From Marvania coccoides (Eukaryota; Chlorophyta; Trebouxiophyceae; Chlorellales; Chlorellaceae): 64,000 bases of DNA. How positions within the stretch are numbered: position 1 is the first letter of the stretch; every line of letters starts with the position of its first letter. Below, one piece after another: positions 54,050-61,259 of this stretch. Under the pieces are notes generated by a model. It made no database searches. It saw only the letters and a list, made by a program, of their open reading frames with translations, and was not told the DNA's origin. The stretch is taken from the NCBI GenBank assembly GCA_963854735.1, contig OY978098.1:2616001-2680000 (forward strand). Reading direction: 5' to 3'. The translations under genes and the position numbers were made by a program.

Positions 54050-57000
54050 ATGGGCGGCACAGAATCGAAAATTGCACAGAAGACGGACATCGAGAAGACA
54101 GCTGTTCACCGGCCAGTTCTTGTGTCCCCTCCTGAACACCCAGACCAAGGCAACGAAAAGCTTAACATCGAGCCCGACCAGCCCGGATCCGAGAGCTCCG
54201 AGGAGGTGCGGCCAGTTTCTGTCCCATTGTTTTCAGTCATTTATATTCTTTTCCAAGCCTCAACCGAACGTTTCTTCGCCGCCTGCAGGAAGAAAAAGAA
54301 TCGTACAAGGACTGGGTCAGTACCGGTACCCGCTCCACCACAAGCGGGTGCCGAAACTCCAGTCTGGAGTTGAGAGAGGCGTCCGGAGGGGAGTGTGGTG
54401 CTTCCCACACCCACACTCACTCCTCCAACCCATCTGATGACGCTCCATCCTCCACCGGGTGGCTGGGACAGTGCCCCTCCACCGATACCCCGCTCCATCA
54501 CCCTGGAGACCTCCACATGAAGACCTCCACCGCTCCTGTTTCCGGGCCTGCCGCGCACACAGCCCCCCTCCCCCGCACCAGCAACAGCAGCACGGGGGGA
54601 GATAACGTAACGCTCAGCCCCGCCGCCTCTGCGCGCTCCTCTTTCGCGCTGGAACGCGCCAGCTTGGAAGCCAATCGTGCCAGCTTGGAGGCGTTTAACC
54701 ACGCCTTCAAACCGCATGCGGCGGTTGGGCAGGCGGCGCCGCCGCGCGCATCAGACGCCCAGGTCTACGACGAGCTCGAACACGCCGCAGCGGCCATGAC
54801 GCTTGACGTTTTAATGAAAATGGCGGGGATTCCTGGGGGGACGAGAGATCAGTACGCCATGCTGGGTGTGCTTCCCTTGCAGACCCCCGCGCCTTCAGGC
54901 ATGCTAGGCCTGCTGTGGGGCATGAACGAGGAGCAGGTGGGCGCCGTGCTGAGCATGCTGGCCTCTCGTGGCGTGGTCAACGTTGCTCGGCTGCCGACAG
55001 GCCACGTCTGGGCGCTGCCGCAGCCGCAGCATCTGCAGCTGCTGCAAGACGCGTGCAAGGCAGAGCTACCGGGGTACCACGCGCGGCTGGTGGCGGCCTA
55101 CGCCGCGTGCCAAGCCGGCACTGTGGACTGCGGTACCGCTCGTGGCCTGGCTGCAGCCCTGGCAAGCAGACCTGATGATGGGTGAGTTTGAATTGTTTCT
55201 CTGTTCTTTCTATTGTGTATATCATCTTGAATGAGTGGGATTTGGTCCTTACCCGCGTTATTTTACTGCTTCAAAGCTGCCAGGCTGGTATTGGGTGCCT
55301 AAAATATCTTCATTTCCCCAAAGATGTGCCTTGGAAGTATGCCATAATTTTAGTAAGCGTATCATTTTACCTATGATAACCTTGGACTGCAGATACTTTG
55401 TGGCCAACATCGCACACCACTTGGTGGCAGCTGGCCGAATGGACGCCGCCAGGGAGTTGCTGTTCGATTTGGGGTGGTTGGAGAGGAAACTGCGGGCGTG
55501 CGGCCCTGCCGCCGTAGTGGCAGACTTCCGGCGCTACCTGCTGGCCCGCTCCGAGCGTGAAGTCAAGCTCTTGCTGGAAGCTTTTCAAATGTCTGTCGGC
55601 CTCGTTCAAACCCACCCAGAGCTGTCAGGCCTGCTTTCTACCCTGGTCTCTGCACGCCTCATGACCGTGCCCCTTTCCCCCGGTATGGCGGGGCGGCTGG
55701 AGGAGCAGCGCACGCGCCAGCGCGCCGCTACCGCTGCCGCCGCCGCCGCCCGCCGCCCCCGTCCTCTTCCCCCCCACACCCCCTCCCTCGACCAAGCTGG
55801 CGGGCTGCAACGGCTCACCTTGAAAGGTCACCGTGGTGCGGTGCCTGTCCTGCTGCTGACGCCCTCTGGCACCGAGGCTGTGAGCGGTGGCGCTGACGGC
55901 AGCGCCCGCGTGTGGGATTTAGAGATTGGCGACTGCACGCTGGTCATGGAGGGGCACGCAGGGCCAATCACCGGCCTGGCCATCACCGCGGACGGCAGCC
56001 TGCTGGTGTCGTGCTCAGAGGACGGCACAGCGCGCGCTTTTGAGATGGAGCAGGGGCAGTGTCTGCGGGTGTTGGCGGGGCATGTTGGGACCATTAACGC
56101 GCTGATGGTGGATCCGCAGGGACGGTTTGTGGTGACAGCAGGGGAGGATGGCACTGTACGCGTGTGGGACTTGGCCTCCGCCAAGGCGCTGCACGTTCTG
56201 TCGGCCCCTGGAGGCGCGTGTGCTGTGGCGCTGTCGCCGTGCGGTCGCTTTGTGCTGGCGGGCTGCGCCGACGGCTCCTGCCGCATGTTCAACGTTTCCA
56301 CCGGCCAGTCTATGGGCTGCATGACGGGGCACACCCGTTGGGTGTCGGTTGTGGCCTTTCTTCCCGACGGCAAGCACGCTGTGTCCGCCTCGCACGACGG
56401 CACTATGCGTACGTGGAGCCTGCGCTCCGGGCGCTGCTCCGCCGTCGCCAAGGGCCACTCCGGGCGCATCAACGCGCTGGCGCTGTCTGCCGACGGTTCG
56501 ATAGCAGCCACCGCCGGCGACGATTGCACCGCTCGCGTGTGGGATGTGCGCACCGGCGCCTGCAGGCGCGTGCTGCAAGGCCACGCCGCCTGGGTGTCGC
56601 ACGTCGCGCTGTCCCCTGCGGGCGATCGCCTTGTCACCGCTTCTGCCGACAGCACCGCCATCGCATGGGCGGTGGACTCAGGGGAGGTTGTCCGAGTGCT
56701 TGAGGGGCATTCTGGGGTGGTGCTGGGCGCGGCAGTGACCAGGAGGGGCCGTTTTGCAGTCACCGCCGCTGAGGACGGCAGCGTGAGGGTGTGGGATTTC
56801 TCCGCCAGCACCGGCCACACTCCGAGGTGGCACGAGGGCAGGATAAGGGCGCTGGCAGGGCGGGACGGCAAGGTGGTGGCCACCTCAGGGGACGACTGCT
56901 TGGCACGGCTGTGGGACTCTGCACTGGGGGAGTATCGAGGGCTGATCAAGGGCCATGTGGTGCCCATTAGATGGGTGCAGTTTTCGGCAGATGGCAGCAG

Positions 57001-58065
57001 GCTGGTCACGGCGTCGCCCGACCGCCAGGTCTGTGTGTGGGACTGCAACACCACCGAGCTGCTCCACCAGCTTCCAGGTAGGTTATATTTTTGCAGGATG
57101 ATACTAGTCATATCGTTTTTCTCTCGCTTTCCCTCAAATTGCTTGCTCTCTTCCGCAAATATATATATATCGATCCATTCTTTTAATTTGCAATTTGTTT
57201 ATCCCCGTAATTGATGCGGCCACGTAAATTAAGCAGCACACGCCCAAATACTATTACTACTACTGTCTAATTCCTACTTTTCCGCCCCTTCTTTTTTTTC
57301 GCAGTCAACCAGGGCAGCCGCATGAAGAGCTTCGCCGCCTCCGCCGACCTTTCCACCGCCGTCATCTGCCTCTTCGACTCCACTGTCACCATCTGGGACC
57401 TCCCCACGGCCCAGCCCACCCTGCAGCTGCAGCGGTGGGGCGATCGTGATGCCACCAGGGGCCACAGCTCCGCTGTGAACGAGGTGATGATGACTGCAGA
57501 CGGCTCCACGGTGATCACCCTCTCCAAGGACTTCACTTCCCGGGTGTGGGACGCTTCTACTGGGGTGTGTCGGCATGTTTTGGAGGGTCACACCGATCCC
57601 GTGGTGGGCGGGTGCTTGAGCGAAGAAGGGCGGCTGGTGGCGACCTACTCGCACGACGGCACGGCGCGGCTGTGGAGCCTGGACGGTGGGCCAGCGCTGG
57701 CGGTGGTGCGGCTGCCGCAGCTAGTCACGAAAATGACGCTGGCGCCGGGAGGGTGCCGCATGGCGGCGGCGCTGGTTGATGGCACCGTGATCCTCGCCGA
57801 CCTGAAGGCGGCCGGCGGGGAGTGCGTGCTGGTTGAGGGCCACAAGGAGGAGGTCACAGATCTTGGGTTTTCAGCCGACGGCCAACTACTGGTGACCTGC
57901 TCCATGGACTGCACCGCCCGGCTGGTGTCGGCCAAGGACGGCGTGACCGAGGGCGTGTTTGTGAGCGACTGTGGGCTGACGTGCTGCCACTACGACAGCG
58001 TGACTGAGTGCATCATTGCCGGAACTGATCGTGGCGTTGTCCACTTTGTGGACGCAAGCAAATGA
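54050..58065 (+). CDS. APAF-1-like winged-helix/helical plus 14-repeat WD40 protein lacking NB-ARC
   Basis: Four exons (54050-54205, 54289-55181, 55393-57077, 57305-58065; GT-AG) give 1,164 residues. It begins MGGTESKI, an N-myristoylation consensus (Gly2, Ser6, Lys7). A Ser/Pro-rich unstructured region follows to about 215. Residues about 220-310 match the winged helix that follows NB-ARC in APAF-1-like STAND proteins (YAMLGVLPLQTPAPSGMLGL, LLWGMNEEQVGAVL), and about 345-420 the APAF-1 helical domain (YFVANIAHHLVAAGRMDAAR, ELLFDLGWLERKL). From about 493 there are 14 WD repeats, enough for two seven-bladed propellers. No Walker A (GxxxxGK) or Walker B occurs anywhere, so the ATPase switch is absent. 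Such proteins are signalling sensors with the NB-ARC present. A membrane-attached scaffold or regulator role is inferred. Confidence 0.88.
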
Positions 58066-59065
58066 TTGCCGGTATAGGTTGAAACAACTCCCGTTTTCCC
58101 GTTTTTCTCCTCTCCACCCCCACTAATAACCCTAGACATTAGTCAAACTGTTCTACTTTCAAGAGACATTCTAACACATTTGCACATCTACAAGTTCTAG
58201 TGCTGTTTGCCTTTTTCCTGTTTTCCTTTTCTTTTCCTCTATTTCCGTCCAAACAGTTTGTTGTTACCCCTTTCTTTGCCAAGATGGATTTTGATAGTTT
58301 TATTTTCCCCTCTTCTTGTTTTTTCCCCATCTACATTTTCTTTTGGTGTTTTCTTTTTTTCCAAATATGAGCCGCTGTCAGCCGAAAATGAGGCAGCGGC
58401 TCTAAGCTAAATGATACGTTGTTTGATGATACACATACAATGATGCACACTGTTGCGATATCACAAATTGCTGCATGTTATAATGTAAAGACAAACTCAG
58501 CGCGATGACGGCATGGGACAAAGTTGAGAAATCGAGTTTACCGCTCGTATTTCACCATCAGTGGCACGTTCAACAAAATATCTTACACTTTAAATTCTGT
58601 GTTATTGTATTGTCAACTGCTTGCCGTTCTCGCCGTCCGGAGCGTCGTGCATGCCATGCATTTCTGCATGCACCTGTGCCTGTTTTGCACCTGTATTTGC
58701 TCTGCACCTGTTTCTGTGTCGGTCGGGCCGTCAGGGACTCGGGGGCAGGGGCCAGAGCCTAGAAAACTGAGGTTGATCTGACGGAGGGAAAGAGGGCTCC
58801 GCCTTACTGTGGCGGGGTTCGTGGCACGTCGGCTTGCGGATCTCTATAGGAGTGACCACGGTAGTGGACCTTAAACCATTTTAAACCTTGAAAACCTTGA
58901 AACCTTGCTGCTGTGACAGTACCGGAGCAGAATAAAATATTGTTAATGCTAGCATGAAAATAAACTAGTGTAAAATGATTGCTAGATGGGACGGTAGGAG
59001 AACCCTGCAGCCAGCACCTTACACCATAGCTCTCCTTAATGAACGGTTCAGACGCAACGATGACT
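58066..59065. other. Intergenic region with a GC-rich island
   Basis: 58080-58410 is T-rich with TTTTCC runs (the 3'UTR of the APAF-like gene). 58610-58870 is an abrupt GC-rich island without an open frame of protein-like composition. It is followed by a short imperfect AAACCTTGAAA array (58868-58905). The left arm of the inverted repeat begins at 59066. No gene is supported. Confidence 0.5.
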
Positions 59066-59422
59066 CTCGATGCCGCCGTTCTGGAACTCCATCAGAGCAT
59101 ATGCGGCGCGGCGCCCCCCGCTGGCAATATGGATAGGCTGGCTGCTTGCATGCACGAGTTAGGGCGCAAAATCATCCGTGGCGTTGAATTGCGTGCGATT
59201 GGGTGTGAGCTAGACGCAAGATGCATCCACGCCCTGGCCCATGTGGAGGGGTTGCTGGAGATTATCGACACTGGCATCTCATTCCACGCCGCGACCACCA
59301 CCTTCAGGCAGGCGGCGCAAGCGGCAAAGGATCGCGTTCAGGACATCAAAGCCAGCCTGACCATTCTGGTCAATGACAACACCCCGCTTGCGGGAGGCAG
59401 TTTTAGCTTTCAACCACGCGTT
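59066..59422 (+). repeat. Left arm of a perfect 357-bp inverted repeat
   Basis: Reads from CTCGATGCCGCC to ACCACGCGTT. Its reverse complement matches 59511-59867 base for base on my reading. It is an inverted copy of most of the last exon of the unrecognised gene, so a plus-strand frame here repeats that protein (starting DAAVLELHQSICGAAPP) but has no promoter or upstream exons of its own. Confidence 0.95.
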
Positions 59423-60674
59423 GCTGAGAGGCAGGTTCACCCTGAGCGGTGAACGGCAGTCGGTCAAAATCAGAAGCAAACGCATCGCAAAGGGGACGCA
59501 GCACGTCAGTAACGCGTGGTTGAAAGCTAAAACTGCCTCCCGCAAGCGGGGTGTTGTCATTGACCAGAATGGTCAGGCTGGCTTTGATGTCCTGAACGCG
59601 ATCCTTTGCCGCTTGCGCCGCCTGCCTGAAGGTGGTGGTCGCGGCGTGGAATGAGATGCCAGTGTCGATAATCTCCAGCAACCCCTCCACATGGGCCAGG
59701 GCGTGGATGCATCTTGCGTCTAGCTCACACCCAATCGCACGCAATTCAACGCCACGGATGATTTTGCGCCCTAACTCGTGCATGCAAGCAGCCAGCCTAT
59801 CCATATTGCCAGCGGGGGGCGCCGCGCCGCATATGCTCTGATGGAGTTCCAGAACGGCGGCATCGAGCAGCGGAACGGGGCCCGCTGCAGGAGAGTGCAT
59901 CTCCGTTATCCTGCAAGAATGCAAGAAAGAAAACTATGATTAGAAATACACTCACAAAGCTTTGGACGACAAATAAATGCATAAATATATGGTGTCTCTT
60001 TAATTTTTATTTTTGTTGAAAAATAAGATTGAGACTTAATATCCTCGGTGCTTGGTGGGCATATGAAAAAATAAATATACAAATACATATTTAAAATAAA
60101 CAAAGCATTGTGCATACATCAACTCACAGCATGTCCACCACCGCTTGGTCCCCGGCCTGCAGATTCTTCAGCAACATATCCGGTACACGGGCTTGATGGA
60201 CTCCGCGTGTACATAGACTGTGGAACCTATAGTTCTTAGTCATCGACGAGGTCACTCGGGCCGTCCCCAAGCAAGGGAACCCATCCAAGAAAAGGCCAGA
60301 ATGACGAGCAAAAATAGCCTTGAGATCAGGGTCGGAAAGACTGTGAACCCCAGGCTCAAGCTTGAGGAAGCGCATAGATTTCTGAAAAGGAGGATGACAC
60401 GGGGGAAGAGCATAATCAGAAAAGGGGTGTGATGGAAGAACGAAAGTATTCAGCTCACCCTATGGCAAGTGAAAGCGGCGCCTTCTCGAGTGACGAAAAT
60501 TAGATCCCCAGAGGCCTCAATGATGTCTTGGTCCGCCCGGACGTGAGCATGGATGGTGGGAAAGCCTTCCAAGGCAAGGATAATCCCGGGCTGGTCAAAC
60601 TCGGCCCTGCTCGTGCCAGACAGCACACCAGCCGGTGGATCGCTCACGACCCTGAACTGCCCCACGACTGACAT
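59403..60674 (-). CDS. Unrecognised protein; last exon captured in a foldback
   Basis: Three exons (60674-60459, 60381-60128, 59910-59403; GT-AG introns) give 325 residues. I recognise no family. Exon 1 carries LALEGFPTIHAHVRADQD and exon 2 FARHSGLFLDGFPCLGTARV; exon 3 is largely helical (NMDRLAACMHELGRKIIRGV). The coding sequence crosses the loop of the inverted repeat and ends a few codons into the opposite arm (QRVVES then stop), so the present C-terminus is probably a by-product of the rearrangement and the native end may be lost. Exons and splice sites look orderly, so it could be an expressed gene or the protein part of a degenerate element. Two 32-bp direct repeats lie at 60036 and 60825, on either side of exons 1-2. 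Confidence 0.65.
59511..59867 (-). repeat. Right arm of a perfect 357-bp inverted repeat
   Basis: Partner of the left arm at 59066-59422, separated by an 88-bp loop (59423-59510). This arm lies in the sense of the unrecognised gene, which is probably its source. A minus-strand transcript covering 59910-59066 would fold into a 357-bp duplex. Confidence 0.95.
60036..60067 (+). repeat. 32-bp direct repeat, copy 1
   Basis: Begins TTAATATCCTCGGTGCTTGG and continues to CATATGAA. It is identical to copy 2 at 60825-60856, 789 bp away in the same orientation, one copy in intron 2 and the other upstream of the unrecognised gene. Confidence 0.93.
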
Positions 60675-61259
60675 TGTAAGTTTGAGAAGTACTAATTAGT
60701 AGAATTTAAGAAGAGAACCCAGTCTCCAAGCAGCTCTGAGACCCCCAAAAGTCCAAAAAGAAAGACGCACTTTAAAACGATAAAACCGCGAAACCCAATC
60801 CAGTAGTATTCAAGGTTTCAAAGTTTAATATCCTCGGTGCTTGGTGGGCATATGAAGAAAAAAAGTTTAGTTTTCTTTAAAGAAAGACTCAGCGGCCCCC
60901 GCGCCTGGACCGGATACGCGCCGCCAGGATACTCGGGCTTGCACGCATGAAAGGCGTCCCCCTCCACCCAACCCACTACCAAGCACATTGGCAACAAAGT
61001 TTTAAGTTTTTTTTTAATCTGCAGACGAGGCGTCACTCTGGCGCGCCAGATTGTTGTAATAGCATAGTGAATTCATAAATTGCAAGTATATGGCGAAATT
61101 AAAAATATGTCAAATCTATAATCCAAAAAGTGGTCTCATGAAAAAGTGAAATAGAAACCAAGGAAGAAAGTTAGGAAGAACTCCACCGCGTTGGTGATTT
61201 TCCACGTTGCTTGGAACCTTGGGCGGTGTTTAATGAATAAAAACCTAAATTCGGCCGCC
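60675..61259. promoter_or_regulatory. AT-rich divergent 5' region
   Basis: 585 bp between the start of the unrecognised gene and the start of the matrix-protein gene. It includes direct-repeat copy 2, A- and T-rich runs, and a palindrome CTGGCGCGCCAG near 61039-61050. Presumed promoters for both genes. Confidence 0.35.
60825..60856 (+). repeat. 32-bp direct repeat, copy 2
   Basis: Identical partner of the copy at 60036-60067, located 5' of the unrecognised gene's start codon. The pair could mark a duplication, an excised element or a shared regulatory motif; the sequence alone does not say which. Confidence 0.93.

Follow-up and report, generated by a model that had tools for sequence, protein, structure and literature searches.

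New MIRNA genes can arise by inverted duplication, in which the foldback of a gene gives discrete small-RNA duplexes. In Caenorhabditis, the arms of long inverted repeats are reported to be actively maintained, and gene conversion has been proposed as one mechanism (PMC1803023). The foldback inversions of yeast have loops with a median of 36 nt when Mre11 and Sae2 are intact (PMC7467729). In the green alga Chlamydomonas, DCL3-dependent siRNAs originate from coding genes, transposons and repeats (PMC4817775), and the available sections of the Chlamydomonas small-RNA map (PMC7676726) contain nothing on single long hairpins. None of the papers listed by one literature search appeared, from their titles, to join hairpin small-RNA loci with gene conversion or concerted evolution. 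The foldback described here, from Marvania coccoides, is of a kind already known; it is unusually well documented by its relatives in the same genome.

The window, the whole 64-kb stretch of DNA analysed (C2:2616001-2680000), comes from a 22.46-Mb genome in 15 contigs. An inverted-repeat scan (seed 14, arms at most 5 kb apart, length at least 40 nt) detected a single pair in it. The left arm (59066-59427, 362 nt) duplicates part of exon 3 of a predicted gene in inverted orientation; it is followed by a 78-nt spacer (59428-59505) and by the right arm (59506-59867, 362 nt, minus strand), which is the sense arm and lies within that exon. The scan gave an identity of 100%, a rounded value: column-by-column comparison of the arms showed one mismatch in 362 columns, at 59510, 5 nt into the right arm from its inner end. 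The mismatch-free core is therefore 357 bp (59066-59422 with 59511-59867) with a loop of 88 nt, which is exactly the perfect foldback described by the initial annotation. The same annotation had proposed that this inverted duplication of the last exon would yield a long duplex RNA if transcribed, and the arms are indeed exon 3 sequence. Among the five sequences scanned (the window, L009, L010, L026 and L027), inverted-repeat pairs were present in the window (1) and L009 (5) only. A dispersed repeat of ∼280 bp (58625-58906) ends ∼160 bp to the left of the foldback and has at least 40 matches covering most of its length elsewhere in the genome.

The gene that carries the foldback is predicted on the minus strand, with exon 1 at 60674-60459, exon 2 at 60381-60128 and exon 3 at 59910-59403, joined by GT-AG introns into one spliced frame of 325 aa. 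Exon 3 crosses the right arm and then the spacer; its stop codon ends 25 nt into the left arm. The neighbouring three-exon gene of the initial annotation thus holds as a prediction, with its frame and GT-AG introns intact; that it is "expressed-looking" is a prediction from the open frame and the splice sites. No homologue of the 325-aa protein was found at E ≤ 1 (5266 word-sharing candidates, database of 5.8 billion). Neither this protein nor the C-terminal tail encoded by the C10 copy (see below) matched a Pfam family at E ≤ 1, and Rfam gave no match in the window at gathering scores. WD-repeat-like open frames, with motifs recognized by eye in the translations, lie beside the foldback at 55373-58065.

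A DNA search of the alga's own genome placed the arm at three loci, on contigs C2, C5 and C10 (scoring covered 40 of the 399 first-look candidates, and counts of dispersed repeats are therefore lower bounds). The same three loci were recovered with the exon 3 protein (7/7 candidates scored), and a search with exons 1-2 gave matches at C2 and C5, not at C10. The unit common to C2 and C5 covers 59066-60753 of the window and C5:939420-942006, with 96-98% identity across its large blocks, and includes insertions. C5 carries the foldback with the axis, junction and 78-nt spacer seen at C2, the spacer being of equal length and place and different in 3/78 bases. Its left arm is longer than that of C2, reaching the equivalent of window position 60263. 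Both C5 arms are interrupted, the left by 323 bp inserted between repeated ACATG and the right by a 350-bp insertion. A 40-nt direct repeat (95%) was also noticed at 60036-60075 and 60825-60864 of the window, with a relative near L009 6863-6908; these elements are possibly parts of small insertions.

The C10 locus has a single arm and no inverted copy in the inverted-repeat scan. Its frame stays open for ∼104 codons past the turn-back point of C2 and C5, and exon 3 of C2 lacks this C-terminal tail; a protein search with the tail gave no other place. C10 differs from C2 and C5 by deletions of 1 nt and 8 nt. It carries frameshifts, and exon 2 of C5 is broken, so both relatives are decayed; the DNA and protein searches of the genome revealed no copy of the ancestral gene that is still intact. 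The initial annotation had named one arm with a different 3' end as the pattern that would speak against its reading. That pattern exists, at C10, but in a paralogue, which we read as being in the pre-inversion state. Between C2 and C10 there are 7 silent and 19 replacement changes in 351 nt (dN/dS 0.89), and between C5 and C10 7 silent and 16 replacement changes (dN/dS 0.74). The C2-C5 comparison gave 5 silent and 5 replacement changes in exon 3 plus spacer (dN/dS 0.33), and 0.5 silent and 4.5 replacement changes in exon 1. The value of 0.33 would fit some constraint on the protein, but the mixed record (0.33 vs. 0.89) does not settle the protein's importance.

At the breakpoint, the gene strand reads CCTCTCAGCCCGCC in C10 and CCTCTCAGCAACGC in C2 and C5, and the turn-back site of C5 is CACGTCAGCAAC. 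TCAGC is shared at the junction, forming a 5-nt inverted microhomology with its partner 78 nt away; at 59506-59510 the motif is TCAGT in C2 and TCAGC in C5. Inverted microhomology of at least 5 nt occurred in 0.6% of 200,000 random inverted junctions made from the C10 copy. Five nucleotides of inverted microhomology are the trace expected from a 3' end that snaps back on itself, and the two hallmarks of such an event were both found, namely inverted microhomology at the axis and a copy without the inverted arm (C10). Judged from this anatomy, a 3' end within the last exon, terminating in TCAGC, would have folded over to pair with GCTGA 78 nt upstream; synthesis from there would have run backwards along the gene, taking in exon 3, intron 2 and part of exon 2. 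A unit of ∼1.7 kb including the foldback would then have come to lie at C2 and C5 alike. Just past the left arm of C5, at L009 3393-3413, 21 bp of the arm end recur exactly and in forward orientation, compared with a longest match of 15 in 200 mononucleotide shuffles; nothing further was found there, and C2 has no such piece. On the thin evidence of this relic, synthesis may then have switched back to the forward direction, as in inverted triplications. The edge of the relic (equivalent of 59864) is 3 bp from the end of the C2 arm (59867), which may reflect chance or a shared breakpoint.

The initial annotation held that complete identity of the arms implies a very recent event. The C5 locus argues against this, with the same foldback on the same axis: over the common 362 bp the two arms differ at 1/362 sites within C2 and 2/362 within C5, whereas the right arms of C2 and C5 differ at 7/362. 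Nine sites vary among the four arms. At six of them the two arms of a locus share one base and the loci differ; none separates left from right arms. The remaining three were changed in one arm only and are located at edges, 59510 and 59516 at most 11 nt from the spacer and 59694 beside the C5 insertion. With C10 as outgroup, the six locus-separating sites resolve into four changes in C2 (both arms) and one in C5 (both arms), the sixth having three different bases and a polarity left undecided by C10. Since both arms of each locus share later substitutions, the arms have apparently been homogenised.

The longer arms of C5 provide an internal control. No difference was found over a further 166 bp, so that the inner part differs at 2/528 sites; beyond the 350-bp right-arm insertion the outer arms differ at 4/138 sites plus a 7-nt gap (Fisher P 0.019, a modest value from small counts). 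In the outer part, the right sides of C2 and C5 differ at 2/143 sites plus a 2-nt gap. Because the outer-arm divergence within C5 is not below that between C2 and C5, the C5 foldback seems no younger than the split of the two loci. Most likely, therefore, the foldback is older than the C2/C5 split, and the arms have most likely been homogenised since then, as the pattern of changes supports. To this whole account, a genuine inverted duplication with an origin before the split and later arm homogenisation, we assign a probability of roughly 0.8. Two mechanisms fit the homogenisation and are indistinguishable here, gene conversion between the arms and template-switch correction, known as quasi-palindrome mutation (PMC3820800). 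A counterpoint is that the outer ends are unequal (C2 at 59066, C5 at the equivalent of 60263), which means that C2 either lost the remainder or never received it. The dating is based on paralogues in one genome of one strain. That genome supplies its own outgroup and its own control, and it shows that a hairpin can be nearly perfect without being young; arm identity is consequently an unsafe clock for new hairpin or MIRNA loci.

The strongest competing account is that C2 is a working hairpin-siRNA locus, with a useful duplex that silences the relatives at C5 and C10. The genome appears equipped for this. A Piwi profile search of the genome detected one Argonaute, in two pieces (C1:121853-122943). 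It has 67 protein matches, of which the best with an organism name are from Chlorella sorokiniana (48%) and Parachlorella kessleri (47%), and seven matches without an organism name score higher than these two (49-63%). Its DNA had no match in a plasmid collection, which is ill-suited to the purpose. The RNase III search gave five matches in the genome, three of them away from the Argonaute locus. The other two (profile positions 1-71 and 26-102, C1:116842-118021) share the strand of the Argonaute match and precede it by ∼3.8 kb. The frame with the first RNase III match also contains a Dicer dimerisation domain (86 bits), a helicase-C piece (24.0, cut-off 23.5) and a PAZ match of 27.7 bits, just below the Pfam cut-off of 28.8; we call the gene Dicer-like on account of these domains beside RNase III. 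The region L026 (C1:114500-124400) thus holds what looks like an RNAi gene pair, a Dicer-like gene and the sole detected Argonaute within a few kb of each other and in the same orientation. An RdRP (PF05183) search gave no match, but the control set was equally silent and nothing follows from the result.

The hairpin itself offers further points in favor. Its predicted RNA folding energy (59066-59867) is -841 kcal/mol. TGTAA, a candidate poly(A) element, is found at 59019-59023 on the minus strand, with its first base (59023) 43 nt past the left arm. From 58600 to 60760 the gene strand has no other TGTAA; over the full 64 kb, 1.8% of 60-nt windows on this strand contain one, a figure that ignores the AT-richer flank. 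UGUAA serves as the poly(A) element of late-branching chlorophytes (PMC1868727). A minus-strand transcript would read the sense arm, the loop and the antisense arm and could end at the UGUAA 43 nt on, and the resulting 362-bp duplex could be processed by the Dicer-like protein and Argonaute of this genome. Exact matches to 229/342 distinct 21-mers of the arm are present in the C5 locus sequence analysed, and to 63/342 in C10; as for possible trans targets, the analysis turned up the decayed C5 and C10 relatives only. One feature expected of an hpRNA locus was found here, a long near-perfect hairpin in a genome with a Dicer-like gene and an Argonaute, and the locus is a plausible source of hairpin siRNAs. 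That it really makes siRNAs we propose only tentatively, with the odds somewhat against it. As an explanation of the structure, a working siRNA locus is a little less probable still and on balance unlikely: homogenisation alone explains the identity of the arms, and the relatives to be silenced are decayed (frameshifts in C10, broken exon 2 in C5). Improbable, in our view, is the full scenario in which C2 would be a hairpin-siRNA gene born by one snap-back from an orphan, possibly selfish, gene, one that reached a second locus, silenced its family, outlived its now decayed targets and has its duplex kept nearly perfect by arm-to-arm conversion.

Two independent recent foldbacks at the same junction, one in C2 and one in C5, would make homogenisation unneeded. 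They would also predict the agreement of arms within each locus, and the outer ends of the two foldbacks do differ. However, a breakpoint identical to the base and the 78-nt spacer would be needed twice, and the divergence of the C5 outer arms (4/138, vs. 2/143 for the C2 and C5 right sides) suggests a C5 foldback no younger than the split. We consider independent origins quite improbable. The alternative raised by the initial annotation was a foldback chimera produced during whole-genome amplification or long-read assembly. The junction does resemble MDA chimeras, which are mostly inverted sequences with more than 70% of junctions primed at 2-21 complementary nt (PMC1855051). Such an artefact is nevertheless very unlikely because the junction recurs at a second locus with a history of its own: C5 has its own substitutions and its 323-bp and 350-bp insertions, the flanks of C2 and C5 differ, and the C2 copy is ∼350 kb away from the end of a 3.0-Mb contig. 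A foldback transposon or MITE has hardly any chance of being correct, since the arms consist of exon sequence, C10 has a single arm and the genome searches placed the arm at three loci only, even though dispersed repeats and insertions are common around these loci.

An inverted duplication that most likely predates the C2/C5 split, with arms homogenised afterwards, can be set beside the systems described before. The presumed pre-inversion copy and two derived copies coexist here with Dicer-like and Argonaute genes, so how a long-hairpin locus is born and kept up becomes directly testable in a small alga. The Nmy and Tmy hpRNA loci of Drosophila simulans (PMC10292708) likewise combine a hairpin related in sequence to a small gene family with the presence of RNAi proteins; their silencing has been shown, whereas the algal locus is known from sequence alone and its relatives are decayed. 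Small inverted triplications (PMC13334657) have a forward-inverted-forward layout, with a 30-bp spacer and a 6-bp junction; the C5 relic would fit this layout. They are smaller (148/160/148 bp on average), and what is seen of a third copy amounts to 21 bp at C5 and to nothing at C2. Yeast foldback inversions (PMC7467729) similarly start an inverted duplication at a short-stem hairpin, but they are gross chromosome rearrangements, while the alga has an interstitial inverted copy of less than 1 kb. The Caenorhabditis long inverted repeats (PMC1803023) likewise have arms that are near-identical within a locus and a sequence that differs between related loci, and a short spacer, 126 bp in one detailed case vs. 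78 here. Those repeats are intergenic, at orthologous loci of three species, with arms of 2207 bp in the detailed case; the alga, in contrast, has two paralogous loci of one genome, with the foldback within an exon.
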